A stretch of DNA of 64,000 nt, from assembly GCA_949297785.1 (NCBI GenBank), contig CASFTW010000011.1, positions 1 through 64,000 of the forward strand. Reading direction: 5' to 3'. This DNA comes from an uncultured Spirochaetales bacterium (GTDB lineage Bacteria; Spirochaetota; Spirochaetia; Sphaerochaetales; Sphaerochaetaceae). Shown here piece after piece: positions 13,392 through 60,509 of this stretch; position 1 is the stretch's first letter; each line of letters begins with the position of its first letter. The position numbers and the translations under genes are program-made. The notes beneath the pieces were generated by a model. The model searched no databases. It had not been told where the DNA came from and worked only from the letters and a program-made list of their open reading frames with translations.

Positions 13392-13404
13392 TCTTTGACG
13401 GTGT

Positions 13405-14367: not shown

Positions 14368-14381
14368 GGATGAAACCTCTT

Positions 14382-14924: not shown

Positions 14925-14934
14925 TATATAAACC

Positions 14935-16394: not shown

Positions 16395-16423
16395 GCGGGA
16401 AAGATAGCACAATGCGATATATA

Positions 16424-16455
16424 TTGTAAACTATATTTCTGATTATAGTTTACAA
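16424..16455 (-). promoter_or_regulatory. BirA-type biotin operator
   Basis: TTGTAAACT, 14 bases, AGTTTACAA: a perfect inverted repeat matching the known BirA box layout (TTGTAAACC-N14/15/16-GGTTTACAA). On the minus strand TATAAT (16442-16447) lies inside the site, so bound BirA would block the promoter. The site is 30 bp upstream of the bioM start. No birA gene is in the window. Confidence 0.85.
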
Positions 16456-16458
16456 ACT

Positions 16459-17808: not shown

Positions 17809-17829
17809 AACTGTCCTCTCTTACGTATT

Positions 17830-17885
17830 GTAAGTTTTAACTTACGATTGTAAATCAATTATAGCTTTATACAGAGCATTGTCAA
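17830..17885 (-). promoter_or_regulatory. Promoter and palindromic operator of the MATE gene
   Basis: On the minus strand TTGACA (17880-17885) and TATAAT (17858-17863) are 16 bp apart, the best promoter match in the window. The perfect palindrome GTAAGTT-TT-AACTTAC (17830-17845) lies just downstream of the expected start point. The regulator is unknown; the divergent Lrp gene is one candidate. Confidence 0.7.
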
Positions 17886-17973
17886 TTTCTGTATGACGTT
17901 TTGAAAAAAAGAAAGGTAAAACACTTTGAACACTTTCCCCTCCTGCTGTAAGATATTCACGAGGAGGTTCATC

Positions 17974-18375
17974 ATGTTTCTCGGCGGACTTGACCAGATC
18001 GACCAGCAGATAGTGGAGCTGCTTATTCACAATGCCCGCATCTCATACTCACAGATAGGAGAGGAGACCGGCATCTCAAGGGTTGCGGCCCGCTCCCGTG
18101 TCCAGGCACTGGAGAAATCAGGTGTGATCGAAGAGTACACTGCCATAATAAATCCACAGACCGATGTGATAAAACAGCTTGAAGAATGTGAGACCATCAC
18201 CCAGATTTACCGCGTGACCGGCAGGAACCGGCTTCATGTGCATGCGGTTGCTTCCTCATCTGATGAAATGGAGGAACTTGTCTCATCTGTCATTGACACT
18301 CTTCCCGGCATTGTTTCCTGTTCGACAAACATAATCCTCTCACGTATCAAGGATATAAAAGGGCTCAGGCTTTAG
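17974..18375 (+). CDS. Lrp/AsnC-family transcriptional regulator
   Basis: 133 residues from the ATG at 17974, fixed by GAGGAGG seven bases upstream. Residues 1-55 are the Lrp-type HTH (LDQIDQQIVELLIHNARISY, then ISRVAARSRVQALEKSGVI). Residues about 60-130 form the ligand-binding RAM domain. It is divergent from the MATE gene and may control it. Its 3' end overlaps the convergent gene at 18365 by 11 bp. Confidence 0.92.
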   Translation: MFLGGLDQIDQQIVELLIHNARISYSQIGEETGISRVAARSRVQALEKSGVIEEYTAIINPQTDVIKQLEECETITQIYRVTGRNRLHVHAVASSSDEMEELVSSVIDTLPGIVSCSTNIILSRIKDIKGLRL

Positions 18376-19213
18376 TCTTGTCTCTGTCCTCGTATTTATG
18401 AAAATAAGTCAGGTATGATGAGCGGCAGTATCTGCCGATATCCTCATCACCTGCGCATTCTGCAGTGAAGTCATATTGTCCGTTGACCCTCCATGCATTG
18501 AGTATTGAAGTTCTCACAGCATCAGAGGGACATGAGAATGCACAGCCCATGCAGAGGCAGCACTCACTTCCGAAAGTGGGGCGTCCGTTTCTCATCACGA
18601 TATTGCCCATCGGACATCTTGCCGCACATTTCCCGCAACCCGTACACTGAGTGCTTACTTTGAAACCCCTTCCGATCAGGGGCGTTGCGGGGTGTTCTAT
18701 CCTGAGAATGAAGGAAACAGCTTTCTCCAATGTGCCTGTCTTCCAGAAATGTTTTTCAAGGGAAGCTATGACTTGTGAATCACAGGGAATTCTCATCCTT
18801 ACAACGTTCCACATCCTTGCCGCCATGGCGTCGGAGTGGCGGAATATGATGTTGTAGGGCATGACATACGAGAATGTGCCGCGTACATCATAACCCCTTT
18901 TTCTGAGTATCCTCATGGGTGAGATGCATGCGGCTCTGTTGAAACCGAGATGTTCTCCCGATGTCTGGATTATGTACGCAGGAGTATTTTCCCCATGGGG
19001 AAGGCTTTTGAGAAACTTGAAGACAGGAAGAGGGGTGTTGAAGGCATGCACCGGATAGGCGATGACAATGCATCCGGAAGTGGTGTATTCAGTTTTCCTG
19101 TCTATCCTGTATATTTCCGTCTCATTTCCGGATTTTTCAATCTCATCTGCCATTGCCTTGCAGACCCGCAGTGTGTTTCCGGTTCCCGAGAAAACGTAGA
19201 ATGCAATTTTCAT
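18365..19213 (-). CDS. EFR1-type flavodoxin/ferredoxin protein
   Basis: 282 residues. Residues 1-150 are a flavodoxin-like domain with the FMN phosphate loop FSGTGNTLRV. Residues about 190-245 hold two [4Fe-4S] motifs, CTGCGKCAARCP and CCLCMGCAFSCP. This arrangement is the EFR1 family of electron carriers common in anaerobes. No membrane segments. The redox partner is unknown. Confidence 0.85.
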   Translation of the reverse strand: MKIAFYVFSGTGNTLRVCKAMADEIEKSGNETEIYRIDRKTEYTTSGCIVIAYPVHAFNTPLPVFKFLKSLPHGENTPAYIIQTSGEHLGFNRAACISPMRILRKRGYDVRGTFSYVMPYNIIFRHSDAMAARMWNVVRMRIPCDSQVIASLEKHFWKTGTLEKAVSFILRIEHPATPLIGRGFKVSTQCTGCGKCAARCPMGNIVMRNGRPTFGSECCLCMGCAFSCPSDAVRTSILNAWRVNGQYDFTAECAGDEDIGRYCRSSYLTYFHKYEDRDKTKA

Positions 19214-43096: not shown

Positions 43097-45571
43097 ATGA
43101 TCAAAAACATAAAAGTCATCGGTGCGAGGGTTCATAACCTCAAGAACATAGATGTTGATATTCCTTTGAATGAAATATGTGCGATTGCTGGTGTATCAGG
43201 TTCGGGAAAGTCCTCTCTGGCTCTCGGTGTTCTGTATGCGGAAGGTTCAAGACGTTATCTTGAGTCTCTTTCAACATATACACGCCGACGTATGACACAG
43301 GCAGAACGTGCGCTTGTTGATGATGTGCTGTATATCCCTGCCGCTCTTGCTCTGCGCCAGAGACCCGGGGTACCGGGAATAAGAAGCACATTCGGAACAA
43401 GCAGTGAACTCCTCAATTCCCTCCGTCTCATGTTCTCCCGTCTTGCCTCTCACCGTTGTCCGAACGGTCATTATGCTCCTCCTTCCATGTCTGTCGCCCT
43501 TGATAAGGAAATAGTTTGTCCTGTATGCGGGGCTCATTTTTACGGGCCGTCTGCAGAAGATCTTGCATTCAACAGCAGCGGTGCGTGCAAGAAATGTGAC
43601 GGTACGGGCACCATACGTACAGTTGACAGATCCTCTCTTGTTCCCGATGAGAGTCTTACAATAGAAGGAGGAGCGGTTGCTCCGTGGAATTCTCTTATGT
43701 GGTCACTGATGGTCGATGTATGCCGTGCAATGGGTGTTCGTACAGATGTTCCTTTCAGAGAACTTACCTGTGAGGAGAAGGAAATTGTATATGACGGTCC
43801 TGCAGTAAAGAAGCATATTCTCTATAAAGCGAAAAACAGCAATGATTTCGCCGAGCTTGATTTCACATATTACAGTGCTGTACATACTGTTGAGAACGCA
43901 CTGGCAAAAGTCAAGGACGAGGCCGGAATGAAGAGAGTTGAGAAATTCCTGCGTGTGGATCCTTGTCCTGACTGCCATGGCAGCAGACTCTCCGATGCGG
44001 CAAGAGCCCCTTTGATTATGGGAATAAATCTTGCAGACGCCACATCAATGACTTTGTCACAGCTCAGTGAGTGGGTTGAGAAGATACCATCTTCGCTTCC
44101 TGAGGAGATTAGACCGATGGCTGAAAGCATAATCGAGTCCTTCCGCGATAACGCAAGGCGTCTTCTGGATCTCGGTCTTGGCTATCTTTCACTTGACAGG
44201 GCCTCAAACACGCTTTCAACGGGAGAAAGACAGAGAGTGCAGCTTGCCCGTGCTGTAAGAAACCGTACAACAGGCGTGCTGTACGTGCTTGATGAGCCTT
44301 CAATCGGACTTCATCCGGCCAATATTGCAGGATTGAAGGCAGTCATGAAGGATCTGGTTGCGGATGGCAATTCTGTGGTTCTGGTTGATCATGACACAGA
44401 GATTCTCAAGGCAGCGGACTGGCTGATTGAACTTGGTCCTGAAGCCGGAAAGAACGGCGGATACATAATTGCTGAAGGTACTCTTGATTCAATCATGAAG
44501 AATCCTTCTTCCATGATTGGTCCTTTTCTGAAAAAGACTCCAGATAGAATAAGAAAGCAGATTGCTGAAGAAGAACTTTTCAAATTCGGGAGCATAAAGC
44601 TTTCAACTGACAGTATCCATACAGTCAGACCTCTGGATGTGTGTTTTCCGCGTGGCAGACTTTCACTTGTAACAGGTGTATCCGATTCTGGAAAGACCAC
44701 AATGATACTGGAAAGTCTTGTACCTGCGCTTGCAGCAGCGGTATCAGGTGAAAAACTTCCTGAGCATGTAAGATCAGTTGAGGCTGATGGCATAAAGCAT
44801 GTCAAGCTTATTGATGCAACACCGATAGGAATAAACATAAGATCTACCGTTGCGACTTATGCCAATGTGCATGATGAACTCAGGAAGCTTTTTGCAAAAC
44901 TTCCTTCAGCAAAGGAAAATGGATATAAAGCCGGAGATTTTTCATATAACACCGGAAAGCTCCGTTGTCCGGTTTGTGACGGCACAGGTTCAATAAGCCT
45001 TGATGTCCAGTTCCTTCCCGATGTTGACATCCCATGCCCTGAATGCCGTGGTTCCCGCTACAGCAAGGATATCGATGAAATAAAGTATACAAATGAAAGA
45101 GGAGAGGAATACTCACTCGGCCAGCTGATGGACATGGATGTGAACAGCGCGCTTAAAGCCATAACAGGGCAGAAGATTATACTTCAGAGACTTAAGACGC
45201 TGCAGGATCTCGGACTTGGTTATCTTACACTCGGAGAGGAGACTCCCGGCCTGTCAGGCGGAGAAGCCCAGCGTCTTAAACTTGCAAGCGAGATGGGCCG
45301 CAGCCAGAGTGATTCAGTGTTTGTTTTTGACGAGCCTACAATAGGACTTCATCCGCTTGATGTACAGACTCTTCTGTCTGTATTCCAGAGCCTGATTGAC
45401 AACGGTGCGACCGTGATTGTGATCGAGCACGATCTTGATGTGATAAGAAATGCTGATTACATAGTGGATATGGGACCTGGAGGAGATACTGCCGGCGGCA
45501 GAATTGTGACATGCGGAGCGGTTGAAAAAGTCAGGGAATGTGTTCAGTCTGTAACTGGAAAATATATCTAA
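43097..45571 (+). CDS. UvrA-like ABC ATPase lacking the UvrB-binding domain (UvrA2 type)
   Basis: 824 residues against about 940 for UvrA. First ATPase half: GVSGSGKSSLALGVLYAEG, signature LSTGERQRVQLARA, Walker B LDEPSIGLHP. Second half: GVSDSGKTTM, LSGGEAQRLKLA, FDEPTIGLHP. Zinc-binding Cys pairs remain (CPVCGAHF...CKKCDGTG and CPVCDGTG...CPECRGSR). The stretch between HRCPNGHY and the first zinc module is very short, so the UvrB-binding domain of true UvrA is absent. Such UvrA2 proteins are linked to tolerance of DNA-binding drugs. Single gene with its own promoter. Confidence 0.88.
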   Translation: MIKNIKVIGARVHNLKNIDVDIPLNEICAIAGVSGSGKSSLALGVLYAEGSRRYLESLSTYTRRRMTQAERALVDDVLYIPAALALRQRPGVPGIRSTFGTSSELLNSLRLMFSRLASHRCPNGHYAPPSMSVALDKEIVCPVCGAHFYGPSAEDLAFNSSGACKKCDGTGTIRTVDRSSLVPDESLTIEGGAVAPWNSLMWSLMVDVCRAMGVRTDVPFRELTCEEKEIVYDGPAVKKHILYKAKNSNDFAELDFTYYSAVHTVENALAKVKDEAGMKRVEKFLRVDPCPDCHGSRLSDAARAPLIMGINLADATSMTLSQLSEWVEKIPSSLPEEIRPMAESIIESFRDNARRLLDLGLGYLSLDRASNTLSTGERQRVQLARAVRNRTTGVLYVLDEPSIGLHPANIAGLKAVMKDLVADGNSVVLVDHDTEILKAADWLIELGPEAGKNGGYIIAEGTLDSIMKNPSSMIGPFLKKTPDRIRKQIAEEELFKFGSIKLSTDSIHTVRPLDVCFPRGRLSLVTGVSDSGKTTMILESLVPALAAAVSGEKLPEHVRSVEADGIKHVKLIDATPIGINIRSTVATYANVHDELRKLFAKLPSAKENGYKAGDFSYNTGKLRCPVCDGTGSISLDVQFLPDVDIPCPECRGSRYSKDIDEIKYTNERGEEYSLGQLMDMDVNSALKAITGQKIILQRLKTLQDLGLGYLTLGEETPGLSGGEAQRLKLASEMGRSQSDSVFVFDEPTIGLHPLDVQTLLSVFQSLIDNGATVIVIEHDLDVIRNADYIVDMGPGGDTAGGRIVTCGAVEKVRECVQSVTGKYI

Positions 45572-45703: not shown

Positions 45704-47215
45704 ATGAAAGCCATTATGGTTATGTTTGATTCACTCAGAAAGGATTTGCTTTCCGTATACGGCGGTTCTGTGAAAACTCCTAATTTTGAGCGTCTGATGG
45801 ATCATTGCGTGAGATTTGACAATTGCTATGCAGGTTCACTCCCATGCATGCCTGCACGCCGTGAGCTGCATACCGGACGCTATAACTTCCTACATCGCAG
45901 CTGGGGACCTCTTGAGCCTTTTGATGATTCGATGCCGGCAATTCTCTCCCGGAACGGGATTCATACACATCTGAGTACAGATCATTATCATTATGTACAG
46001 GACGGAGGTGCGACTTATCAGGGGCGGTATTCCACATGGGAATGCCATCGCGGGCAGGAAAGCGATCAGTGGATTGCTGATCTGAATATGAAAAAAGAAG
46101 GAGATGCTCCGAATCAGCTCTCTCCATGGAATGCAAGTCAGACAATGCGTCCTAACAGACAGAATGCAGGATGGCAGAATATGGCAAACAGGGAAGTCCT
46201 CAAGTCTCTTTCCGACTATCCATGCGTGCAGACATTTGAAAACGGGCTTGATTTTCTTGACAGAAACCACAATGCGGATAACTGGTTCCTGCAGGTCGAG
46301 ACATTTGATCCTCATGAACCTTTTACTTCACCGGAGTCCTATCAGGCACTTTTCCTTGATCCTGACGATATTGACGGACCGGACTGGCCCCAGTATGCGG
46401 ATACTGATGAAAGTGATGCTGAGATAAACGCAATGCGCGGCAGATACTTTGCCCTTGTGCGTCTTTGTGATGACATGCTGGGACGTATCCTTGATAAGAT
46501 GGATCAGTACAGCCTGTGGGAAGATACTCTTCTCATTATAAATACTGATCACGGATTCCTGCTGTCTGAGCATGGCAAATGGGGTAAAGGAACATCTCCT
46601 AATTACAATGAACTTGTCAATATTCCGTTCTTCATACATGATCCAAGGACAAAGGCCTGCGGTGTGAGAAAGGCTCTGGTACAGACCATAGATATTCCTG
46701 TCACGATACTCTCATTCTTCAATATTCCTGCCACGCAGGATATGAGGGGAAAAGACCTTTTGAAATGTATTGAAGATGATACTCCTGTAAGAGATGCTGC
46801 GATTTTCGGATACCTCGGGGGGCCTGTAGGTATTACAGACGGGCAGTATGTCCTTCTGCATGATAGTGTAAACAAAGATGCCGACATTTATGAATATACA
46901 TTGATGCCGACACATATGAAGTCCTTTTTCTCTCCTGAAGAGCTTAAGACAGCGACGCTTTATGAAGACTTCAGCTTCACCAAAGGCTGTCCTGTGATGA
47001 AAATCAAGGCAAAGGTTAATCCCCGTTTCAGGAATCAGCTGAAACACGGTGATGAGCTGTATGATGTAAAAAGCGATCCCCACCAGCTGAATCAGATTAA
47101 GAATGATGATGTCAGAACAAAGCTGATTTCCTTTGCCAGTTGTATTTTCAGTGAAAATGAAGCTCCTGAAGAATTATATACCTATTACGGAATTAAAAAG
47201 GAGGAACCGTTTTGA
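45704..47215 (+). CDS. Cysteine-type sulfatase 1
   Basis: 503 residues. The maturation motif is C48-M-P-A-R52 followed by RELHTGR; the Cys is turned to formylglycine by a sulfatase-maturing enzyme. Metal-site parts: MFDSLRKD near the N-terminus and INTDHGFLLSEHGKWGKG. There is no signal peptide, so it should act in the cytoplasm on an imported sulfated sugar. First gene of an operon with a GH3 enzyme, a phosphomutase and a second sulfatase. Its stop shares one base with the GH3 start. The sulfate position cleaved cannot be predicted. Confidence 0.9.
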   Translation: MKAIMVMFDSLRKDLLSVYGGSVKTPNFERLMDHCVRFDNCYAGSLPCMPARRELHTGRYNFLHRSWGPLEPFDDSMPAILSRNGIHTHLSTDHYHYVQDGGATYQGRYSTWECHRGQESDQWIADLNMKKEGDAPNQLSPWNASQTMRPNRQNAGWQNMANREVLKSLSDYPCVQTFENGLDFLDRNHNADNWFLQVETFDPHEPFTSPESYQALFLDPDDIDGPDWPQYADTDESDAEINAMRGRYFALVRLCDDMLGRILDKMDQYSLWEDTLLIINTDHGFLLSEHGKWGKGTSPNYNELVNIPFFIHDPRTKACGVRKALVQTIDIPVTILSFFNIPATQDMRGKDLLKCIEDDTPVRDAAIFGYLGGPVGITDGQYVLLHDSVNKDADIYEYTLMPTHMKSFFSPEELKTATLYEDFSFTKGCPVMKIKAKVNPRFRNQLKHGDELYDVKSDPHQLNQIKNDDVRTKLISFASCIFSENEAPEELYTYYGIKKEEPF

Positions 47216-48909
47216 TGGATTTAAAAGCAAAACCTTTCAATCTGTCTGATGAAGATATTGAATGGGTGAATTCCACACTTGCTTCGATGAGTATGGAGGA
47301 TAAAGCAGGACAATTGTTCTGTGTCCTGTTCAAGAAGGCCGTACCGGAAGAATTTGATTATGTTTTTGGCATAATGAATCCAGGTGCGTGCATGTACCGC
47401 GTTGTACCTGTGAAAAATGCAGTGGAGGCATCAAATGCCCTGCAGCACATGAGCCGTATTCCTCTTCTTATTGCTGCCAATCTTGAAAAAGGCGGTAATG
47501 GAATAGTGGAGGAGGGAACTCTTGTAGGCTCCCCTATGGAAATTGCGGCAACTGATGATGTTGAGATGGCCCGCAAGATGGCAAGCGCCTGTGCAAGGGA
47601 AGCCCGCGCTGTAGGTGCGAACTGGGCTTTCGCGCCGATCATAGATATTGATTCCAATTTCCGTAATCCGATCACGAATACAAGGACATTTGGCTCTGAC
47701 AGTGAAAGAGTGAAGAACATGGGAAAGGCTTATGTTGAGACTGTTCAGTCGTATGGAGTTGCTGCCGCAATCAAGCATTTCCCGGGAGATGGTCAGGATG
47801 AGAGAGATCAGCATCTTGTGACATCAATAAACTCCATGGATGCAGATGAGTGGATGGCTACATACGGCAAGGCATACAAGGCCTGTATTGATGCCGGATC
47901 CCTCACTGTCATGGCCGGACATATCATGCAGCCTGCATGGTCAAGAAAGCTTGTGCCCGGAATAAAGGATGAGGAAATCATGCCGGCAACGCTCAGCAGT
48001 GAACTTCTTAACGGGCTTCTGCGCGGTAAGCTTGGTTTTAACGGACTCATCTGCACGGATGCCACTACAATGGCAGGTTATATGCTGGCTATGGGACGGG
48101 ACAAAGCTGTGCCGTATTCAATTGCCGCCGGATGCGACATGTTCCTTTTTGCCCGCAATCTTGAAGAGGATTACGGCTTTATGCTTGAAGGTATCAGAAA
48201 CGGCATCATAAGTGAGGAAAGGCTGAATGAAGCCGTTACAAGAATCCTTGCGGTAAAGGCTGCTCTTGGCCTGAATAAAAAACAGCTGGATGTGGACATT
48301 GATGAAGCCATGAAGATTGTAGGCTGTGCAGAACATAAAACCTGGGCTCAGGAATGTGCGGATGCCGCCATCACTCTGGTTAAGGAACAGAAAGGTGTGC
48401 TGCCAATTTCTCCTGAAAAATACAGAAGGGTGCTCTTCTATACTATAGAGCCGTCAGCAGGCGGAGAAGGAAACTACAAAACGACACCGGCATGTGCCAA
48501 AGTCCGGCAGATGCTTGTTGATGAAGGTTTTGAAGTTGAGGATTTCGTTCCTCAGCCATATGGCGAAGGATTTACAACCAAATACATGGATTTCGTCAAC
48601 CGCTATGATTTGATAATCTACGTTGCCAATCTTTCAACAAAGAGCAATCAGACGGTTGTGCGTATTGAATGGAAACAGCCTATGGGTGCGGACTGCGGTC
48701 ATTATATCAATGATATCCCGACGATTTTCATCTCGCTGGAAAACCCATATCATCTTCTGGATTTCCCCAGAGTTAAGACATATATCAACTGTTACAGCAA
48801 TAATGACTGCTGCATAAAGGCCCTTGTCGACAAGCTTACCGGACGCAGCAGCTTTAAAGGCAAGAGTCCGGTTGATCCGTTCTGCGGCAAGTGGGATGCG
48901 CATCTTTGA
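47215..48909 (+). CDS. GH3 beta-N-acetylglucosaminidase or phosphorylase (NagZ/Nag3-like)
   Basis: 564 residues from the ATG at 47215 (TGATG overlap; AAGGAGG upstream). The TIM barrel holds KHFPGDG (187-193), the acid/base dyad D198-Q-H200 typical of the NagZ branch, and the nucleophile D282 in GLICTDATTMAG. A second alpha/beta domain follows (about 390-564). NagZ-branch enzymes use His rather than Glu as acid/base, and one studied member, Nag3 of Cellulomonas fimi, is a phosphorylase. The phosphomutase gene next door makes a phosphorylase role attractive here. No signal peptide. Probable substrate: beta-linked GlcNAc or a related sugar released from sulfated oligosaccharides. Confidence 0.85.
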   Translation: MDLKAKPFNLSDEDIEWVNSTLASMSMEDKAGQLFCVLFKKAVPEEFDYVFGIMNPGACMYRVVPVKNAVEASNALQHMSRIPLLIAANLEKGGNGIVEEGTLVGSPMEIAATDDVEMARKMASACAREARAVGANWAFAPIIDIDSNFRNPITNTRTFGSDSERVKNMGKAYVETVQSYGVAAAIKHFPGDGQDERDQHLVTSINSMDADEWMATYGKAYKACIDAGSLTVMAGHIMQPAWSRKLVPGIKDEEIMPATLSSELLNGLLRGKLGFNGLICTDATTMAGYMLAMGRDKAVPYSIAAGCDMFLFARNLEEDYGFMLEGIRNGIISEERLNEAVTRILAVKAALGLNKKQLDVDIDEAMKIVGCAEHKTWAQECADAAITLVKEQKGVLPISPEKYRRVLFYTIEPSAGGEGNYKTTPACAKVRQMLVDEGFEVEDFVPQPYGEGFTTKYMDFVNRYDLIIYVANLSTKSNQTVVRIEWKQPMGADCGHYINDIPTIFISLENPYHLLDFPRVKTYINCYSNNDCCIKALVDKLTGRSSFKGKSPVDPFCGKWDAHL

Positions 48910-48925
48910 AAGGAGGTTTGAACAG

Positions 48926-49579
48926 ATGCAGGAATATAAAGGACTGATATTCGATCTTGATGGCGTTATTGTAGATACCGCAAAGTATCATTTCCTCGCA
49001 TGGAAAAAGCTTGCGGATGAATTGGGAATCGATTTCACCGAAAAGGATAATGAAAGGCTGAAAGGCGTAAGCCGCATGGCTTCATTCGAGATCATTCTGG
49101 AAATCGGAAACAGAAAGATGTCACAGGAAGAGAAGGAAGAATGCTGCAGAAAGAAAAATGACCTTTATGTGTCATATATTATGCAGCTTACGCGCAGCGA
49201 TATTCTCCCGGGGGTGGATAAGTTCATACGTGATGCCAAGAAAGAAGGATATAAGATTGCACTCGGTTCTGCCAGCAAGAACTCTTCTCTCATTCTTTCA
49301 AGACTCGGTATTGAAGATTATTTTGATGCTGTCGTTGACGGTACAAAGGTTTTAAAGGCAAAGCCTGACCCTGAAGTCTTCACAAAAGGAGCAGAAGAAC
49401 TGGGACTGTCTTATGGAGAATGCATCGTATTTGAAGATTCCACTGCAGGCATTGAAGCTGCACATAACGGAGGCATGAAAGCAGTCGGAATAGGATCAGA
49501 AGATATCCTCAATGCCGCAGATGTCGTCATACCGGGCTTTGCCGGTATTGATGTCGGGACACTGATTGAAAAACTGTAA
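48926..49579 (+). CDS. Beta-phosphoglucomutase-like HAD phosphomutase
   Basis: 217 residues from the ATG at 48926, nine bases after AGGAGG. YKGLIFDLDGVIVDTAKYHFLAWK carries the catalytic Asp pair over residues 4-27; LKGVSRMASFEIIL, GSASKNSSLILSRLG and KPDPEVF then VFEDSTAGIEAA follow. It closely resembles the pgmB at 6137. Placed directly after the GH3 gene it would take the beta-sugar-1-phosphate that a retaining GH3 phosphorylase would release. Whether it accepts glucose- or GlcNAc-1-phosphate is open. Confidence 0.85.
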   Translation: MQEYKGLIFDLDGVIVDTAKYHFLAWKKLADELGIDFTEKDNERLKGVSRMASFEIILEIGNRKMSQEEKEECCRKKNDLYVSYIMQLTRSDILPGVDKFIRDAKKEGYKIALGSASKNSSLILSRLGIEDYFDAVVDGTKVLKAKPDPEVFTKGAEELGLSYGECIVFEDSTAGIEAAHNGGMKAVGIGSEDILNAADVVIPGFAGIDVGTLIEKL

Positions 49580-49592
49580 AAAGGAGGATGAT

Positions 49593-51110
49593 GTGAGAAT
49601 TCTGTATTTTGATATTGACACCCTTAGACCTGACCATCTGGGATGCTACGGTTACGGCCGTAATACAAGCCCCAATATTGATGAAATCGCACGTCAGGGT
49701 GTGCGCTTCACTGATTACTACTGTTCAGATGCACCGTGTCTTCCGAGCCGTGCGGCTCTGATGACAGGCCGCTTCGGCATACATACAGGATGTATCGGGC
49801 ATGGCGGCTGGAATGCGGAAATGAGGCCTGAAGGGCATGAAAGGGGTATGGCGGACTTTAACGGACGCTATAACCTTCCTGCAGTCATGAGAAGGGCCGG
49901 AATGAAGACTGCATCGGTTTCCAGTTTTCCTGACAGGCATGCTGCATGGTGGTTCAACGGCGGTTTTGATGAGTCATACAATGTAGGTAAAAGAGGTCTT
50001 GAACCGGGGGACGATGTCTATCCCATCGCAGTTGACTGGCTGGAACGCAACAAAGACAGGGATTCATGGTTCCTCCATGTACATCTCTGGGATCCGCATA
50101 TTCCTTACAGAACACCCGAGTCATACGGCAAGCCGTTTGAAAACGATCCGCTTCCCGACAACTGGATGAGCGATGAAATCCTCAATGAACACAGAAGCAC
50201 AAAGCCCGGTGCGCACAGTGCCATGGAAGTTAACGGATATTCACCGGAAAAGGATGCTGCTCATCCGCGTCAGATCACACAGATAAACAATCTTGATGAT
50301 TTCAAGACGATGATTGATGAATACGACACGGGAATCCAGTATGCAGACCGCTGTGTGGGAATCATACTTGATAAGCTCAGGGAAATAGGAAAATTCGATG
50401 ACACCTGCATAATCATAAGCTCGGATCATGGAGAATGCCTCGGGGAGTGCGGAAGTTACTGTGAACACGGAGAAGCCGATTATGCCACAACTCATATTCC
50501 ACTGATCATCAAATGGAAAGGCTGTGCACAGAATGCTGTTTCTTCCGGTTTCCATTACAATGTGGATCTGCTTCCGACATTAATCGATCTTATCGGAAAC
50601 GTACCGCCGTTCAAATGCAACAGGGTGGTGGGTAAACCGAACCCCGTGACTTATGACGGAGAAAGTTTTGCACAGAACGTGATAAACGGCAGTGACGGAG
50701 GACGGGAGTTCCTTGTAGTGAGCCAGTGTGCCCATGTATGTCAGCGTTCCGTACGTTTCGGCAGATGGCTTTATATGAGGACATATCATGACGGCTATCA
50801 TCTGAGCGAGGAGGATGAGCTATTTGATATTGAGAATGATCCTCATGAAACGAAAAACCTGGCTGAGGAGTATCCTGAGGTATGCTGGCATGGTGCGTGG
50901 TATCTGGAACACTGGGTTGCACGCAATATGCTGTCCAACATTCATAATTACCGTACTGATCCTCTTTGGGAAGTGATAGGAGACGGAGGTCCGTTCCATT
51001 GCAGGGGCTATCTTGCCAATTACTGCACAAGGCTGGAGGAAACAGGGCGTGCTGATCTTGCTGCAAGATTGAAAAGCGAACATCCGCAAGAGTATTCAGT
51101 CAGTTATTGA
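49593..51110 (+). CDS. Cysteine-type sulfatase 2
   Basis: 505 residues from a GTG at 49593, five bases after AAGGAGG; the nearby ATG codons are out of frame. MRILYFDIDTLRPDHLGCYG carries the first metal Asp residues, the maturation motif is C49-L-P-S-R53 followed by AALMTGR, and ISSDHGECLGE supplies later ligands. No signal peptide. It resembles heparan-type or N-sulfoglucosamine sulfatases in general style, but specificity is not assignable. Last gene of the operon started at 45704. Confidence 0.9.
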   Translation: MRILYFDIDTLRPDHLGCYGYGRNTSPNIDEIARQGVRFTDYYCSDAPCLPSRAALMTGRFGIHTGCIGHGGWNAEMRPEGHERGMADFNGRYNLPAVMRRAGMKTASVSSFPDRHAAWWFNGGFDESYNVGKRGLEPGDDVYPIAVDWLERNKDRDSWFLHVHLWDPHIPYRTPESYGKPFENDPLPDNWMSDEILNEHRSTKPGAHSAMEVNGYSPEKDAAHPRQITQINNLDDFKTMIDEYDTGIQYADRCVGIILDKLREIGKFDDTCIIISSDHGECLGECGSYCEHGEADYATTHIPLIIKWKGCAQNAVSSGFHYNVDLLPTLIDLIGNVPPFKCNRVVGKPNPVTYDGESFAQNVINGSDGGREFLVVSQCAHVCQRSVRFGRWLYMRTYHDGYHLSEEDELFDIENDPHETKNLAEEYPEVCWHGAWYLEHWVARNMLSNIHNYRTDPLWEVIGDGGPFHCRGYLANYCTRLEETGRADLAARLKSEHPQEYSVSY

Positions 51111-51525: not shown

Positions 51526-52746
51526 ATGAAAATTGAGCATGGTAGTAATCTACCCAGATCAAAAAAAACTAATCAGTCTGCGATAAGAAGAATGATATAT
51601 CTGTATGGTCCTATAACGAGGACAGAGATTGCTAGGAAACTGGATTTGACATTGCCTACCATAACAACAAATGTTAACAGCTTGCTTTCCAACGGCCTGA
51701 TCAGAGAGCTGGATGAAAAGATACCTAATGCTGATGGTGTAGCTGGTAGGAAATCGACATTGCTGCAAATAGTTCCTGAATCCAGATATTTCATAGGCGT
51801 TGAGATTTTTAGAAAATATCGTTCTGCTTCAATAGTAGATTACAAAGCGAATGCAGTGCGGAATCTGAGAGATGAGCAATTCATATCCAATTATGAGGAT
51901 CTGATATTGTCTGCATCCTGTCTTGTCAACAGCCTTTTGGAGTCACAATATGTTCCTAGATGTAAGATATACGGTATTGGTATTTCGATGCCGGGTATAG
52001 TTGATACGGAGAATGGTGTTCTATATAGCCACAGACAATACAATTTTTATGACAAAAATGTTGTCGATGATATCAGAAAACAGATAAATACTGATTTGCC
52101 GGTTTATCTGGAAAATGATGCAGCAGCCAGAGCGATCAGGTATAGCCTTCAGAATAAAAAAAACATTTCCGAGTGTGGAGTTTTTGCATATTTGTTCGTT
52201 CAGGATGGTATTTCATGTCCAATCATGATGAATAATCCGAATTTTATTTCATCCTGTATCGGACCGGGAGAGTTGTCTTACATGATTCTGGAGGCAGGTC
52301 GTCCGATGGGCAGAAATGGTTCTGATGGAATGCTCAGTAATCTGGCGGGTATGAGAGCAACAATTGAGCGATGTGTTGATTCCAATATTCCTGAAATACT
52401 TGAAATACTCGATTCTGGATGCAAAGTGACAGGAGAAGATATTTTAAGACTTCAGCGAAATGGAAATGAGAGGATACATCAGATAATCAGTGAATCTGTG
52501 AACTACATCGGCATTGCTCTGGCAAATATCGACAATATTGTCAGACCTGACAGCATTATTGTTGAAGGTTCATTCTTTGAAAACAGATGTAACAGAGAAA
52601 ATCTTGTTTCTTCATGCAAAGAATATCTGTTCAGAAAAGATGATGATATTAATATCAAATTCATAGATACAGATGAATTCACAGGTGCCGCAAGTGCTGC
52701 ATCCGTGGCAATTCAGGAGGATATGGGGGATTATATCGGGTTATGA
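51526..52746 (+). CDS. ROK-family regulator, degenerate kinase domain
   Basis: 406 residues. Residues about 17-65 are a winged HTH (RRMIYLYGPITRTEIARKLD, then LPTITTNVNSLLSNGLI). The rest is a ROK domain with YGIGISMPGIVDTENGVL and YLENDAAARA. The zinc motif C-x-G-C-x-x-G-C of most ROK proteins is missing (GRNGSDGMLSNLAG in its place) and the phosphate-binding loop is poor, so it is a sensor, not a kinase. It lies inside the sulfatase locus and is the best candidate for the regulator acting at TTAATTAAT. Its base composition is more AT-rich than the 6-25 kb genes. Overlaps the next start (ATGA). Confidence 0.85.
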   Translation: MKIEHGSNLPRSKKTNQSAIRRMIYLYGPITRTEIARKLDLTLPTITTNVNSLLSNGLIRELDEKIPNADGVAGRKSTLLQIVPESRYFIGVEIFRKYRSASIVDYKANAVRNLRDEQFISNYEDLILSASCLVNSLLESQYVPRCKIYGIGISMPGIVDTENGVLYSHRQYNFYDKNVVDDIRKQINTDLPVYLENDAAARAIRYSLQNKKNISECGVFAYLFVQDGISCPIMMNNPNFISSCIGPGELSYMILEAGRPMGRNGSDGMLSNLAGMRATIERCVDSNIPEILEILDSGCKVTGEDILRLQRNGNERIHQIISESVNYIGIALANIDNIVRPDSIIVEGSFFENRCNRENLVSSCKEYLFRKDDDINIKFIDTDEFTGAASAASVAIQEDMGDYIGL

Positions 52747-53249
52747 AAGGAAAAAAGTATCTTATAAGCCCTCTTCATTTCATGGTTTCGTTCTTTACAG
52801 CTTTTGCTCTGATTATTCTTGTGTTTATTTTCATCGCCATGCACAATTATGTGGCTTTCATCGCATGTCTTGTTCTGGCAATTCTTTTTATACACGAGGC
52901 ATTTGTATATGGACGGGTTGTTGAGATAAATAGTTATGGTGTGAAAATGAAGCATTTCAACTGTGTTGAAAAGGATTGGCGGTGGGATGAAATTACTCAG
53001 GTTGGTGTTGCTGGCACAAGAGTTTTCATGAAAGATTTTCTAGGTAAAACCGGTTCTCTCTTTATCTATCTTTCAAAAGAAGAACTTGATGAACAACAGA
53101 TATTCAACATGATGCTGGACTGGCCTCCTAAGGATAAAGTATTTATAAAATATGATATCGATCGTCTGAATATGATACAGACATATTATTCCGGCAGAAT
53201 CAAAGTCTACAATGCTGGAGATATAAAGATCTATGGAAAAGAAACCTAA
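52743..53249 (+). CDS. Small membrane protein with PH-like domain; unknown function
   Basis: 168 residues. Two membrane segments (about 12-35 and 37-58) are followed by a cytoplasmic part with EINSYGVKMKHFNCVEKDWRWDEITQVGV and LFIYLSKEEL, in the style of bacterial PH-like domains. It is locked between the ROK gene (4-bp overlap) and sulfatase 3 (17-bp overlap), so all three are co-translated. No role in glycan use is known for such proteins. Confidence 0.6.
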   Translation: MKGKKYLISPLHFMVSFFTAFALIILVFIFIAMHNYVAFIACLVLAILFIHEAFVYGRVVEINSYGVKMKHFNCVEKDWRWDEITQVGVAGTRVFMKDFLGKTGSLFIYLSKEELDEQQIFNMMLDWPPKDKVFIKYDIDRLNMIQTYYSGRIKVYNAGDIKIYGKET

Positions 53250-54864
53250 TATTATAATATTCAATCCAGACGAGATGAGATGGGATGCCTTATCTCATAT
53301 GGGTGTCAATCAGGCTGCTGTAACACCGAATTTTGACTCATTTATGTTGAATGATGCAGTGTCGTTCTCCAATGCATATTGTCAGAATCCAGTATGCGTT
53401 CCGTCCCGTTGTTCTTTTTTTACTGGACTGTATCCCCATGTGAAAGGGCATCGTACAATGCAGCATATGCTGCACGAGAATGATTCGAATCTGTTCTCTG
53501 AATTGAAAAGAGCAGGCTACTATGTCTGGATGAACGATCGCAATGATCTTGTAGCTGGACAGGTGCCAGGCTTGCTTGAAAGTCTTGCTGACGAGGTCTA
53601 TTCTGGCATGTCGGATCCAAGGGTACAGAGAAATGACCATGGAAAACCTGTTGTCAGTTCAATCAGGGGAGAAGAAGGCAGTAAATATTATTATTCACAT
53701 TATCGTGGAGAATTGGCTTGTGATGCTGACGGCTTATGTTATACGAAAGATGATGCATCTGTCGACAGAGCCGTGGAAGTTTTATCACAAAAGCGTGATA
53801 AACCTGTTCTTGCTTTTCTCGGATTGACCTATCCACATTGCCCGTATGGTGTTGAGAAACCTTTTTTTTCAGCCATAAACAGAAGGCTGCTTCCCAGACG
53901 GGCCTCTGCTGGATATAAGAAAGCTCAGATGTTGAATGAACTTAGGAAGAGAGTTCATCTTGATTCTTTCTCGGAACAGGATTGGGATGAACTGAGGGCT
54001 GTATATCTAGGCATGTGCATGAAAGTCGATGCCCAGTTCAAACGTCTTTGTGATGGCCTGAAAAAAGCAGACAAATATGACAGTTCATTGATAATAGTAT
54101 TGTCGGATCACGGTGATTTCTGCGGTGATTATTCACTTCCTGAGAAAAGCCAGAATACATTTGAGGATTGTCTTGTCCGTGTTCCGCTGCTTATCAAACC
54201 TCCAAAGGGATGCAATGTGGATCCGGGCATTTCGTCCAGCCTTGTGGAACTTGTGGATTTTTATGCAACTGTTATGGATTATGCTGGTGTTAAACCAGAT
54301 CACGATAATTTCGGCACATCGCTCAGACCTATTGTCTCTGATCGGAATAAAGAGGTAAGAGATTATGTTTTTTCTGAAGGGGGAAGAATGCCATATGAAT
54401 GGCAGGCCGATGAATATCATGGGGTTTCAGGTTCAACAGGGATTGTCCCAAAAAACAGTGAATATTGGCCAAAGCAGGACGCGCAAAGAAATGGAATGGC
54501 ACACATCAAGGGTACAATGATAAGGGATAAACATCACAAGTATATAATGAGAGCAAATGGTGAGGATGAATTCTATGACATGGATGCGGATCCACTTGAA
54601 GAGCGCAACGAGATAGATAATCCGGAATATGCAGACATTATCTTGAAACTGAAGCTCGAGATGCTCCGATGGTATCAGAGAAGTGCTGATACAGTTCCCA
54701 GAAAAGTTGACAACAGGCTCAGTTATTCGCAGTTCTGCAGAATAGTCAAGAATTTGGATGATGATGACAGAGCTATTGCTTTCAATGAATATCAACTTGG
54801 TATGGGAGCGCCAGGAATCAGCAAGATGGTGAAATCTGCTGAAACTGGAAAGCTGTCAGTGTAA
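53233..54864 (+). CDS. Cysteine-type sulfatase 3
   Basis: 543 residues. PNIIIFNPDEMRWDALSHMG carries the first metal ligands, the maturation motif is C55-V-P-S-R59 followed by CSFFTG, and VLSDHGDFCGDYSLPEKSQNTF the later ones. No signal peptide. It starts inside the preceding gene. Its divergence from sulfatases 1 and 2 and the separate operon suggest a different sulfate position. Confidence 0.9.
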   Translation: MEKKPNIIIFNPDEMRWDALSHMGVNQAAVTPNFDSFMLNDAVSFSNAYCQNPVCVPSRCSFFTGLYPHVKGHRTMQHMLHENDSNLFSELKRAGYYVWMNDRNDLVAGQVPGLLESLADEVYSGMSDPRVQRNDHGKPVVSSIRGEEGSKYYYSHYRGELACDADGLCYTKDDASVDRAVEVLSQKRDKPVLAFLGLTYPHCPYGVEKPFFSAINRRLLPRRASAGYKKAQMLNELRKRVHLDSFSEQDWDELRAVYLGMCMKVDAQFKRLCDGLKKADKYDSSLIIVLSDHGDFCGDYSLPEKSQNTFEDCLVRVPLLIKPPKGCNVDPGISSSLVELVDFYATVMDYAGVKPDHDNFGTSLRPIVSDRNKEVRDYVFSEGGRMPYEWQADEYHGVSGSTGIVPKNSEYWPKQDAQRNGMAHIKGTMIRDKHHKYIMRANGEDEFYDMDADPLEERNEIDNPEYADIILKLKLEMLRWYQRSADTVPRKVDNRLSYSQFCRIVKNLDDDDRAIAFNEYQLGMGAPGISKMVKSAETGKLSV

Positions 54865-54994: not shown

Positions 54995-55945
54995 TCATAT
55001 TTCGTTGATCCTGCAACATGTAACGAAGTGTCCTGTAGATATTTCCTGTTGCTTCTGTGGCTGATGGCATGCTTCTGTTGCGAATTTACAACGTGCGGCA
55101 AATCTGCAACCAGGCTTTGGGTTGATTGGTGATGTGATTTCACCCTTGAGAACCTCTCTCTTCATCGGATGATGGATATCGATTGTAGGAATAGCAGAAA
55201 GCAATGCCTTTGTATATGGATGCATAGGATTTCTGAACAATTCTTTTGAAGAGCACTTTTCAACGACCTGACCAAGATACATAACACAAATGTCATCAGA
55301 TATGTGTTTAACTACTGAGAGATTGTGTGTTACAAACATGTAGGTGAGCCCTCGGTCTATCTGAAGTTTTTTCAGAAGGTTCAGAACTTGTGCCTGAATC
55401 GATACATCAAGGGCTGAGACCGGTTCATCACATACGACGAACTGAGGGCCAAGTGCCAGAGCTCTTGCTATACCCACTCGCTGTCTTCTTCCTCCGTCAA
55501 GCTCGTGAGGATATGCCAGTCGAAGTCTTTCATCTATGCCCACCAATCCCATAAGTTCCGTAGTCATTTCATCGATTTCTTGCTTTGTGTATTTTTTTGA
55601 TACTTTCAATGGCTCCTTGATCGTTGATTCGATTGTTTTTCTCGGATCAATGGACGAATACGGATCTTGGAAAATGATCTGCATCTTCTCCCGGGCAGCT
55701 TTCAGCTGTTTTGAATTAAGAACAGTAATATCCTCTCCATTAAGAAGAATCTTACCTGATGTTGGTTCCTGTAGGTGAATTATAGTTCTTCCAAGAGTTG
55801 ACTTGCCGCATCCGGATTCGCCAACTACGCCAAGAGTCTTTCCTTTTTCGATTGAAAAGGTTACGTCGTCAACGGCATGAAGCATTCCTCTGTGAGTCGG
55901 GAAATATTTCTTCAGGTTTTGTACTTCAATAAGTGTATTGCTCAT
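54995..55945 (-). CDS. Dpp/Opp-type ABC transporter ATPase (DppF-like)
   Basis: 316 residues. Walker A GESGCGKSTLG, Walker B FVVCDEPVSALDVS, and the C-terminal oligopeptide/dipeptide ATPase extension with a Cys cluster (CRFAARCKFATEAC). The signature reads LDGGRRQRVGIARALA, with Asp in place of the usual Ser of LSGGQ. It energises the importer with the ATPase at 55942. Starts inside the DppD stop (ATGA). Confidence 0.93.
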   Translation of the reverse strand: MSNTLIEVQNLKKYFPTHRGMLHAVDDVTFSIEKGKTLGVVGESGCGKSTLGRTIIHLQEPTSGKILLNGEDITVLNSKQLKAAREKMQIIFQDPYSSIDPRKTIESTIKEPLKVSKKYTKQEIDEMTTELMGLVGIDERLRLAYPHELDGGRRQRVGIARALALGPQFVVCDEPVSALDVSIQAQVLNLLKKLQIDRGLTYMFVTHNLSVVKHISDDICVMYLGQVVEKCSSKELFRNPMHPYTKALLSAIPTIDIHHPMKREVLKGEITSPINPKPGCRFAARCKFATEACHQPQKQQEISTGHFVTCCRINEI

Positions 55946-56934
55946 GCTTGTTTCTCCTTTATCACCTTGTCAAGGTTGCAACACATGCAGTCATGCCCAT
56001 CTGGTGTTTTAACAATTCCTATTCTTCCTTGTTTGCAGCTGTCTGTTGCATATTTACATCTTGGACCGAAAGGACAGCCTTGTGGCAGATTAGTAGGATC
56101 TGGTGGAAGTCCTTCGATCGGTGTAAGCCATTCTTGGTCATCGTTTAAAGCAGGTATGGCGCCGAATAGACCAATGGTGTAAGGATGTGACGGATGATCG
56201 AATATTTGTTCTTTCGTACCGTACTCAACGATCATACCAGCGTAAATGACAGCAACTGTATCACATACGTTAGCTACAACTCCCATGTCATGAGTGATCA
56301 GAAGCATGGCAGTGTTGAATTTCTTTTGAAGTTCACCAACTAGCTCAAGAACTTGAGCCTGGATTGTTACATCCAATGCTGTTGTGGGTTCATCAGCAAG
56401 AAGCAGATCAGGATTACAAGCCAGAGCAATAGCTATTACAACTCTCTGTTTCATTCCTCCGGAAAACTGGTGAGGGTATTCATGATATCTTTCTCCGGGT
56501 ATACCAACAATCTCAAGCATTTCTTTTGCTCTCTGATGAGGTGATACGCCATTTTTCTCATTGTGAAGAGCAACAACCTCTGCAATCTGATCTCCGACGG
56601 TTTGTACCGGATTTAGTGCTGTCATGGGATCCTGAAAGATCATTGAACATTTGTTTCCTCTAATCTTTCTCATGTGTGCTTCGTCAAGTTCGAGAAGGTT
56701 TTCTCCGTCAAGATAAATCTCTCCGCTTTTGATTTGCGCGCCCACATCTGGAAGGATTCTCAGAATTGATTTTGCAATGGTTGTTTTTCCCGCTCCTGTT
56801 TCCCCTACAAGCCCCAGTGTTTTTCCCTTATCAAGTTTCAGGGAAACACCGTTAACCGCATGTACGATCTCGTCATTCGAAAAATATTCTACAACCAAGT
56901 CTTTTATATCCAGATAACTTGTTTTTTCTGTCAT
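55942..56934 (-). CDS. Dpp/Opp-type ABC transporter ATPase (DppD-like)
   Basis: 330 residues. Walker [10 protein letters not shown], signature [16 protein letters not shown], Walker [15 protein letters not shown], and the Cys-rich C-terminal extension ([14 protein letters not shown]). Preceded by GGGAGG. Forms the heterodimeric motor with the DppF-like protein. Confidence 0.94.
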
Positions 56935-56946
56935 CTTATTCCTCCC

Positions 56947-57813
56947 TTATTTTTTGAGTTTCGGGTCAAGCGCATCTCTCAATCCATCACCGAGGAGGTT
57001 AAGTGCTAATACTGTTACAGCAATTGCAAGGCCCGGGAAAATGATCAGATGAGGAGCCTGTCTCATGAATTGCCTTGCGGCTGAAAGCATTGAACCCCAT
57101 TCCGGTGTTGGCGGTTGGACCCCTAAACCGATGAATGACAAAGATGCTGCCATTGTGATGGTTTGAGCTACACCCATTGTTGTTGAGACAATTAGCGGTG
57201 AAATACAGTTCGGCAGAAGATGAACAAATATTGTTCTGAATTTTGAACAGTTTATTGACTGACTTGCCTCAATATATTCGCTTCCTCTTTCTTTCATCAT
57301 CTGAGCTCTGAGCATTCTTGCGCTTCCTGAGATACCTGATATAGACAAAGCGAATACGGTATTTATGAAACCAGGTCCCAATACGGCTGAGATCACTATC
57401 ATTAGCAACATACCCGGAATAGCCTGTATGACATCAAGTATTCTCATGAGGATATTGTCTACCTGCCCCCCGAAAAATCCTGCAATGGAACCAATGGTTA
57501 TTCCTATTACACTTCCGAGGGCAACTGCAAGAACGCCGATAGAAATGGAGTAACGACTGGCGTAAAGCACGCGGGAGAAAATATCTCTTCCCATATCATC
57601 GCAACCGAACCAATGCTCTGCAGAAGGACCTGAGAATGTTACACTGAAATCCATTGCTGTATAATCGTATGGAATAATATATGGAGCCAGAATGGCGAGA
57701 ATCACTTCAACTATGAAGATTACAAGACCGACAACAGCCAGTTTGTTTTTCATCAGTTGCCTGAGTACTCTCCTGAATTCGCTGTTCTTTTTTAGTTTGT
57801 TTACTTTCTTCAT
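56947..57813 (-). CDS. Dpp/Opp-type ABC transporter permease (DppC-like)
   Basis: 288 residues, about six membrane segments. HWFGCDDMGRDIFSRVLYASRYSISIG is the DppC signature, spread over residues about 92-118, and LSFIGLGVQPPTPEWGSML comes later. Starts inside the DppB stop (ATGA). Confidence 0.94.
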   Translation of the reverse strand: MKKVNKLKKNSEFRRVLRQLMKNKLAVVGLVIFIVEVILAILAPYIIPYDYTAMDFSVTFSGPSAEHWFGCDDMGRDIFSRVLYASRYSISIGVLAVALGSVIGITIGSIAGFFGGQVDNILMRILDVIQAIPGMLLMIVISAVLGPGFINTVFALSISGISGSARMLRAQMMKERGSEYIEASQSINCSKFRTIFVHLLPNCISPLIVSTTMGVAQTITMAASLSFIGLGVQPPTPEWGSMLSAARQFMRQAPHLIIFPGLAIAVTVLALNLLGDGLRDALDPKLKK

Positions 57814-58766
57814 ACTGCTTTCCTTTTTTTTGAACCCGCTGTGTATCTTGCTTTGATCCTAGGATCAACAGCAGCATAGAGAAGGTCGATTATAAGCATT
57901 GTTAAGGAGAATGCAATTGCGAGAACGATTGTTCCTCCCTGAACGACAGGATAATCTCTGTTGTTCACAGCATTGATTATGTAGAGACCCATGCCAGGAA
58001 TACTGAAGATTGTTTCAATGATCATTGCGCCTCCAAGAAGACGTGCAAATGTATTGCCCAGCTGAGTGATGATCGGAATCAGTGCGTTCTTAAGAGCATG
58101 TTTGAAAATAACTGTTTTCTCTGGAACGCCTTTTGATCTTGCAGTCGTAATGTAGTCGGCTCTTATGACATCAAGCATTGATGATCTTGTCTGACGGGCG
58201 CAGTTTGCAAGAGCACCGGCGCAGTTTGCAACAGCCGGAAGTATATAATACTCCAGACCTCCGAACCCCATTGCCGGCAGCCATCCCAGATTTACAGAGA
58301 AAAGCAGTATGAGCATCAATGCAAGCCAGAAACTTGGAATGGCAACTCCCAGAAGAGCTAAAACCATTGAAAGACTGTCCTGCCACTTGTTCTGATGAGT
58401 TGCAGCCATTATTCCCAACGGTATTCCAAGACCGTAACCTATGAATAGGGTGACAAATGCGAGTATGAGAGTTCTGGGCATTCTTTCTGCAATTGATGAA
58501 CCGATGTTTATTCCTGTGATCCACGATGTACCCATGTCAAAATGGAAAAAAACATCGGATATGTACGTTCCTAATCTTTCAAGATATGGATCATTCAATC
58601 CCATATCAATTCTTTTAGCTTCCAATTCTGCTTCCGTTGCAGATGCTCCAAGTACTATTGCCGCCGGATCGCCTGGGCAGAAAAGCATCATTGTGAATAC
58701 AAGTATCGTAACTCCCAGAATGATTGGTATCATCCACAAGAGCCTTTTACATACGTATTTAAACAT
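57810..58766 (-). CDS. Dpp/Opp-type ABC transporter permease (DppB-like)
   Basis: 318 residues, six membrane segments. YVCKRLLWMIPIILGVTILVF at the N-terminus and the ARSKGVPEKTVIFKHALKNALIPI loop are characteristic. AAGGAG precedes the ATG. First permease after the SBP, with a strong hairpin between. Confidence 0.94.
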   Translation of the reverse strand: MFKYVCKRLLWMIPIILGVTILVFTMMLFCPGDPAAIVLGASATEAELEAKRIDMGLNDPYLERLGTYISDVFFHFDMGTSWITGINIGSSIAERMPRTLILAFVTLFIGYGLGIPLGIMAATHQNKWQDSLSMVLALLGVAIPSFWLALMLILLFSVNLGWLPAMGFGGLEYYILPAVANCAGALANCARQTRSSMLDVIRADYITTARSKGVPEKTVIFKHALKNALIPIITQLGNTFARLLGGAMIIETIFSIPGMGLYIINAVNNRDYPVVQGGTIVLAIAFSLTMLIIDLLYAAVDPRIKARYTAGSKKRKAV

Positions 58767-58791
58767 AGAAACTCCTTTTGCAGGTGGGAAC

Positions 58792-58813
58792 GGTTCCCGG
58801 ATAACCGGGAACC
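58792..58813 (-). other. Intercistronic hairpin between SBP and permease genes
   Basis: Perfect 9-bp arms GGTTCCCGG / CCGGGAACC with a 4-nt loop, 13 bases past the SBP stop, no T-run on the minus strand. It matches the pattern at 10748, 33615 and 40975. Confidence 0.8.
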
Positions 58814-58826
58814 ATTTTAGTTTTTG

Positions 58827-60464
58827 TTAATCGCCGAGCTGACAGGAAGCGAATGAAACATATCCTGACATTCCGCCTCTGACGATCTTCTTCATGTTTA
58901 TGTTGTTATTCCAGATGGTAAAGACTGATGGATTGACGATACCGTAGGCGATTGCATTGTCTTTGATGTAGTAGTGCACAGCATCAATATTCTCTTCTGT
59001 GAAACCATCAACAGTCCATGCTTTGTAGATAAGGTCTGCAAGAACCATGTCATTTCTGCCGGTTGCATCACCGTTAGTGTATGCAGCGGGATCAAACCTG
59101 ATAGACCAGAAGTCTGGGAGTGCGGTACCTCCTACTGTATTTATCGTCATGTCATACTGGGTACCATCGAGTCTTATGGCAGTATAGAGAGCCATATCGA
59201 CGGCATTGATCTTGACATTGATTCCAACTTGTCTGCAGAAACCCTGAATAAGCTGTCCGAGTCTTGACGCAGTAGCAGAAGACGTTGAGAGAAGAACAAG
59301 CTCTTCGCCGTTGTATCCGGATGCCTCAACAAGTTCCTTTGCTTTTTCCACATCATACTGATAGTAATCTTCGTTCTTCCACTTCTCGTTGAACCCGATA
59401 AGGCGAGGGGAGGCGCAGTCCCACATCTGTGTACCATATCCTGAGGCTATTGCCTGGATCATGCCGTTCTCATCAATAGCATAACAGATAGCCTGTCTCA
59501 GCTCCTTGCTTTTTGCCAGAAGTGATGATTCAGCTCCAGAGAAGAACACTTGCCAACCCTGTGGTCCGTCAGAAAGGTCGATTGTATAGGATGTGTTTCC
59601 CACATACTGGCTTCCTGTTGAAGCTGCGATATCGATAACAGCATCGACTGTACCAGTCTCAAGTGCTACACCGAGCTGGAATGCTTCAGTGATAATCGAA
59701 TAGTTGACATATTTCTGAAGAGGCCTGACGCATTCAGGGAGAAGTTCTATATCCTGCCAGTAATCGTCCCGTCTCTCAAAATTCAACTGTGCTGAAGGAG
59801 TAAAGGAGGTTACCTTATATGGGGATGTTGATACGGCAGAAAGCCCGAATTCATCACTTGATTCCTTGAACGCCTTTTCTGAGACCACAAATGTATCGAT
59901 CAGTAGACCTTCAAACGCACCGACAATGTTTGAATTCATTTTGATCTCAAGGGTGTAATCTCCCGTCACAGTTGCAGACTCAACTTTTGAGAATGTAGGT
60001 TTGAGTCCTCTGGCTTTTGACTCGTTTATGAACCATACAACGTCTGATGCTGTGATATTGTTTCCGTTACTGTCTGTGATGTAACTGTAGATTTCAACAT
60101 CATATGTAAAGCCGTTGTCATCTGTCGTCCATGATTTTGCGGCATATGGAACGACTTCATTTTCATCATTCAGGACACCGAGTGTTTCATAAAGCTGCAT
60201 CATGTATGGTGCATTTTTTGCTGTGTTTGATCTGAAAGGTGTGAGTGAATCAATGGCTGTTCCATAACCTATGTTTATGGAATTGTCAGTGAGGACAGAT
60301 GACTCTGCAACTTCTTCTGTAGAAGCTGCCACGTTTGCGATTGTTTCAACGGACGGGGCTTCTGTTGTCGCAGTTGTTGTGCTAGCTTCTGTTTTTTTTG
60401 CACAACCGGTAAGACACAGCATAACCATTACCGTTGCCAGTAAGATTTCAAGTATTCTTTTCAT
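58827..60464 (-). CDS. Family 5 extracellular substrate-binding lipoprotein
   Basis: 545 residues from the ATG at 60464, seven bases after GGGAGG. Lipoprotein signal (CLTGCAKK, Cys about 22), then a Thr/Ser-rich linker. The SBP family 5 fold shows NIGYGTAIDSLTPFRSN, LYETLGVLNDENEVVPYAAKSW, LRQAICYAIDENGMIQAI and INVKINAVDMALYT. This family binds peptides, nickel, opines or oligosaccharides. The sulfatase/GH3 context favours a sulfated oligosaccharide; Vibrio uses a related transporter for N,N'-diacetylchitobiose. Confidence 0.92.
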   Translation of the reverse strand: MKRILEILLATVMVMLCLTGCAKKTEASTTTATTEAPSVETIANVAASTEEVAESSVLTDNSINIGYGTAIDSLTPFRSNTAKNAPYMMQLYETLGVLNDENEVVPYAAKSWTTDDNGFTYDVEIYSYITDSNGNNITASDVVWFINESKARGLKPTFSKVESATVTGDYTLEIKMNSNIVGAFEGLLIDTFVVSEKAFKESSDEFGLSAVSTSPYKVTSFTPSAQLNFERRDDYWQDIELLPECVRPLQKYVNYSIITEAFQLGVALETGTVDAVIDIAASTGSQYVGNTSYTIDLSDGPQGWQVFFSGAESSLLAKSKELRQAICYAIDENGMIQAIASGYGTQMWDCASPRLIGFNEKWKNEDYYQYDVEKAKELVEASGYNGEELVLLSTSSATASRLGQLIQGFCRQVGINVKINAVDMALYTAIRLDGTQYDMTINTVGGTALPDFWSIRFDPAAYTNGDATGRNDMVLADLIYKAWTVDGFTEENIDAVHYYIKDNAIAYGIVNPSVFTIWNNNINMKKIVRGGMSGYVSFASCQLGD

Positions 60465-60509
60465 TTCGATACCTCCCTTTTTTAAGATGAAATTCAAATA
60501 CTTAAATTG

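Follow-up and report, generated by a model that had tools for sequence, protein, structure and literature searches.

Gene content of the locus

The window (the whole stretch of 64,000 nucleotides that was analysed), from a gut-type bacterium, carries on its forward strand a GH3 gene (47215 to 48909, from ATG to stop, 564 aa) whose product scores 219 bits against the PF00933 profile. Pfam, phmmer, a tree, the active-site motif and a predicted model together make it a predicted BglX-type beta-glucoside phosphorylase. The next gene, also on the forward strand, encodes a beta-phosphoglucomutase (bPGM) of the pgmB type (48926 to 49579, from ATG to stop, 217 aa), and the coordinates confirm that it starts 16 bases past the GH3 stop, as the sequence-only reading had counted. 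The mutase scores 254.9 bits against the TIGR01990 bPGM equivalog model (cutoff 189.4) and retains the FDLDGV, LKGVSR, SASKN, KPxP and EDS motifs of Lactococcus lactis bPGM (1LVH). It shares the equivalog family and the active-site residues of that enzyme and differs from it in context alone. By model score and catalytic residues it is a canonical bPGM, with a predicted conversion of beta-glucose 1-phosphate (beta-Glc1P) to glucose 6-phosphate (Glc6P).

Three predicted S1-type sulfatases are encoded around the pair on the same strand. Sulfatase A (45704 to 47215, PF00884 124 bits) is Cys-type (C48-M-P-A-R), and the stop of its gene shares one base with the start of GH3 (TGATG). Sulfatase B (49593 to 51110, PF00884 141 bits, CLPSR motif) has a probable GTG start 13 bases past the mutase stop, with the listed open reading frame beginning at TTG 49566. 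Sulfatase C (53233 to 54864, PF00884 111 bits) has a CVPSR motif. All three combine the PF00884 fold with the CxPxR motif, and the same genome encodes a radical SAM sulfatase-maturing enzyme, as expected of Cys-type S1 sulfatases. Searches of solved structures with A, B and C returned only remote matches of mixed activities, including PehA and phosphonate monoester hydrolases, which point to no particular substrate. Phosphodiesterases and phosphonate hydrolases also occur in PF00884, and a sulfatase role for A to C is a prediction. The sequence-only reading had picked out the gene pair itself correctly but passed over these flanking genes. Just upstream of sulfatase A lies a gene for a UvrA-like protein (43097 to 45571, 824 aa) that scores below the UvrA cutoffs.

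Between sulfatases B and C, a ROK/NagC-like transcriptional regulator (51526 to 52746, forward strand, PF00480 66 bits plus HTH) is the probable regulator of the cluster. It is followed by a small protein (52743 to 53249, forward strand) with zero Pfam matches, which travels with the ROK gene and the transporter (28-32% identical copies in loci L033, L037 and L038). A Dpp/Opp-type ABC transporter, the candidate substrate importer, occupies the reverse strand (54995 to 60497): ATPases at 54995-56934, permeases at 56947-58766 and an SBP_bac_5 binding protein (178 bits) at 58827-60497. Promoter and terminator scans gave matches at chance level. Inspection by eye found no obvious signal peptide on the cluster enzymes, so the chemistry is probably cytoplasmic.

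Kinship of the GH3 protein

The Asp-His dyad (D198-Q199-H200) and the nucleophile (D282) lie where the sequence-only reading had placed them, with Q199 between the two dyad residues. Its assignment of the protein to the NagZ branch did not hold. The top solved relative is BglX (also BglP; 5VQD, 5VQE; AUG44408.1), which matches over the full length with 48% identity (phmmer E 1.3e-169), followed by NagZ/YbbD (E 8e-47). The predicted GH3 model (pLDDT 85) superposes on 5VQE/5VQD with a TM of 0.91 and a VIA Z of 53, and the Z against NagZ is 46. In a tree of 47 GH3s, BglX nests within the clade of the window protein (support 95/86), with the reservation that its branch is long and its exact placement unsure. 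Against the curated NagZ model NF003740 the protein reaches 110 bits, below the cutoff of 207; this model is narrow, and such a score is weak evidence taken singly. By sequence, tree and predicted structure the protein belongs with BglX and not with NagZ.

NagZ-type GH3s (YbbD, 3BMX; LpqI) and Nag3 of C. fimi have the GH3 barrel and the Asp-His dyad in common with the window protein. The residue between the dyad positions differs: DQH occurs in every member of the clade except one paralogue with DHH, and sequence comparison gives RDQH in BglX, which has the nucleophile motif in common with the window protein too, whereas DSH is found in YbbD and in a NagZ-type GH3 on contig C18 of the window's own genome. 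According to the abstract of Macdonald 2018 on BglP, an active-site Gln to Ser exchange reportedly shifts specificity from glucosides to GlcNAc. The DQH/DSH contrast fits such a switch and is a lead on substrate. Taken together, DQH and the bPGM neighbour suggest that glucose, not GlcNAc, is the most likely sugar of the GH3 protein.

The cluster was probably acquired horizontally, since no relative of the same genus or family carrying this GH3 was found among the genomes sampled, yet its homologues in Clostridia are 70-79% identical.

Pairing with beta-phosphoglucomutase across genomes

Relatives were drawn from 22 loci with close GH3 relatives in other species, and further ones from sampled Bacilli genomes; the pairing count took in the 31 GH3s that scored at least 500 bits. 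A same-strand bPGM lies no more than 6.5 kb from the GH3 gene in 22 of the 31 and is the immediate next gene in 14, counts that are not independent because many of the relatives are close copies. The remaining 9 lack a nearby bPGM, but some of these are on short contigs, which are frequent in the set, and fragmented genomes can conceal pairs. The pair was found again in several genera. By comparison, among the best 150 matches, none of the 76 NagZ-type GH3s from genomes holding a bPGM has one within 10 kb. The pair's recurrence and this control (again among the best 150 matches) rule out chance adjacency.

The window's own genome follows the same pattern. All three of its bPGMs above cutoff adjoin a glycoside-cleaving gene (GH3 in two cases, GH65 in one). 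Contig C4 encodes a second BglX-type GH3 with a bPGM directly beside it, and two of the three mutases therefore adjoin such a GH3. The third belongs to the GH65-pgmB pair at 6137-9012, which the sequence-only reading had pointed out and which profile searches recovered. Both arrangements would supply beta-Glc1P to a beta-phosphoglucomutase, but GH65 inverts on alpha-glucosides, while the GH3 protein is predicted to retain on beta-glucosides. The contig C4 locus (L026, G000:C4:60001-80000, 7231-18454) holds two BglX-type GH3s, one with DHH in place of DQH, and one bPGM. It also contains three similar genes for 7-bladed lactonase-type propellers (PF10282 confirmed for one) and a ribose-type sugar ABC transporter.

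The genes around the pair are conserved in part. A sulfatase occurs within 5 kb of the GH3 gene in 15 of the 31 relatives. Orthologues of sulfatase A (57-62% identical) adjoin it in L031, L032, L036, L038, L039 and L040, an orthologue of B (71%) in L033, and orthologues of C (55-58%) in L032 and L041; these loci are spread over Clostridia, one Treponema contig and Paenibacillus. Five of the 31 relatives adjoin a GH78 rhamnosidase instead, three of these five with sugar ABC transporters. No locus among the 31 has both a sulfatase and GH78, and some have neither. A ROK gene also adjoins GH3 in L033, L037, L038, L041 and L043-L045. The transporter set (57-81% identical) does so in L033, L037 and L038, where the ROK and transporter genes recur as one set. 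In L041 a TauE-type exporter adjoins the bPGM.

Some observations lie outside this pattern. No bPGM lies near the more distant GH3 proteins with DQH (L079-L086, L091, L095), some with KHWPGDG, which may be hydrolases or may hand on what they make to a different enzyme. In many Bacilli genomes the reading frame that holds bPGM is about 950-1150 aa long and looks like a fusion with another large enzyme, possibly GH65. Close to the pair in L087 (9831-12080) there is a gene for a glycyl radical enzyme (PFL-like).

A predicted phosphorolytic pathway and its alternatives

Retaining GH3 phosphorylases are rarely described: two members of this large family had been characterised as such by 2022 (PMC8950772). 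One is BglP, which acts on beta-glucosides with beta-Glc1P, and C. fimi Nag3 phosphorolyses GlcNAc glycosides (PMC8950772). Two other GH3 enzymes with the His/Asp dyad behave as hydrolases: with LpqI phosphate made no difference and the product was GlcNAc (PMC6572805), and with RmNag3 phosphate had little effect (PMC6987092). The dyad by itself thus does not predict phosphorolysis. The sequence-only reading had argued from a His-type active site to phosphate use, which agrees with Nag3 but not with LpqI or RmNag3; what carries the case is therefore the relationship to BglX together with the mutase. On these grounds its central idea, that a retaining His/Asp GH3 releases a beta-1-phosphate for the adjacent mutase, is probably right. 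The argument is now stronger, because the closest solved structure is that of a proven GH3 phosphorylase and the pair is conserved, and phosphorolysis to the beta-1-phosphate is well supported by analogy.

The pair probably stands at the centre of a phosphorolytic pathway that breaks down capped beta-glucosides in the cytoplasm, with the sulfatases and the transporter serving it. The Dpp-type transporter would import a sulfated beta-glucoside, from which the flanking Cys-type sulfatases would strip sulfate; in sister clusters the GH78 rhamnosidase would take their place and remove a rhamnose cap. D282 of the GH3 protein would then take up the glucosyl group to form a glucosyl-enzyme, H200/D198 would serve as the acid/base, and phosphate would release the glucosyl group as beta-Glc1P with retained configuration. 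The mutase would convert this to Glc6P, so that ATP would not be spent. Gene identities and order, the conserved pairing, the motif and the fold are observed; from them we infer the catalytic steps (phosphorolysis from BglX, glucose from DQH and bPGM, and the sulfatase function) and the order in which they follow. The 48% identity to BglX and the distant DQH proteins that have no bPGM set limits on this reading.

An unlikely alternative is that the protein is a His/Asp hydrolase; a kinase would then phosphorylate the freed glucose, and the bPGM would serve another phosphorylase. LpqI and RmNag3 show that tested enzymes with this dyad can be plain hydrolases (PMC6572805, PMC6987092), but both are NagZ-type, while the nearest GH3 relative of the window protein is a proven phosphorylase. 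Moreover, bPGM tracks BglX-type and not NagZ-type GH3s, and the genome already has a separate bPGM beside GH65.

It also seems improbable that the phosphorolytic pair is real but its sulfatase-fold neighbours are unrelated to it or cleave a different ester (such as a phospho- or phosphonate ester). This would suit the range of matches of the three proteins, which includes PehA and phosphonate monoester hydrolases, as well as the pairs without sulfatases in L042, L044, L045, L049, L087 and L090. However, the same sulfatase orthologues recur in place, often overlapping the GH3 start, the genome encodes a maturase and the Cys of CxPxR is present.

For the phosphorolytic pathway with sulfatases, the fuller version has about an even chance of being right. 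It would be a horizontally spread and previously undescribed cytoplasmic pathway, present in Bacillota and on one or more Treponema contigs: sulfatases uncap imported sulfated beta-glucosides that come from plants, algae or a host, the retaining GH3 phosphorylase and bPGM feed Glc6P to glycolysis without ATP, and rhamnosidases replace the sulfatases in sister clusters. No description of a sulfatase-linked GH3-bPGM pathway was found in the openly searchable literature. The enzymes are of known kinds, and as far as that literature goes the coupling to sulfatases appears to be the new part.

BglX was discovered by screening metagenomes for activity on aryl glucosides and had no known role. The gene of the window protein is linked to those of a bPGM and sulfatases, a context suggestive of a physiological pathway. 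The conserved operon with bPGM would give GH3 phosphorylases a concrete metabolic role. A DQH GH3 adjoining a bPGM could serve as a marker for more of them, and the suggested rule is simple: DQH plus a bPGM neighbour separates GH3 phosphorylases from many His/Asp GH3 hydrolases. The substrate class pointed to is that of sulfated or rhamnosylated beta-glucosides, which gut and rumen bacteria may use.

Sulfatases commonly accompany amino-sugar glycans, the ROK regulator is NagC-like and nagA is present in the genome, all of which would suit the version first proposed from the sequence, in which beta-GlcNAc glycosides are phosphorolysed and the mutase accepts beta-GlcNAc-1-phosphate. Nag3 of C. 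fimi lends it a precedent (PMC8950772), but this version is very unlikely: the DQH motif is that of the glucoside phosphorylase and not DSH, the reported Gln to Ser exchange concerns this very specificity, the mutase is a standard bPGM with no sign of GlcNAc-1-phosphate use, the nagA genes and the pair are on different contigs, and some relatives have a rhamnosidase instead of sulfatases. The motif, the relatives and the family of the mutase led to GlcNAc specificity being dropped as the favoured reading. Another cluster of the genome (G000:C10:33971-42084) combines two sulfatases with nagA and is a more likely place for the use of sulfated GlcNAc than the GH3-bPGM locus.
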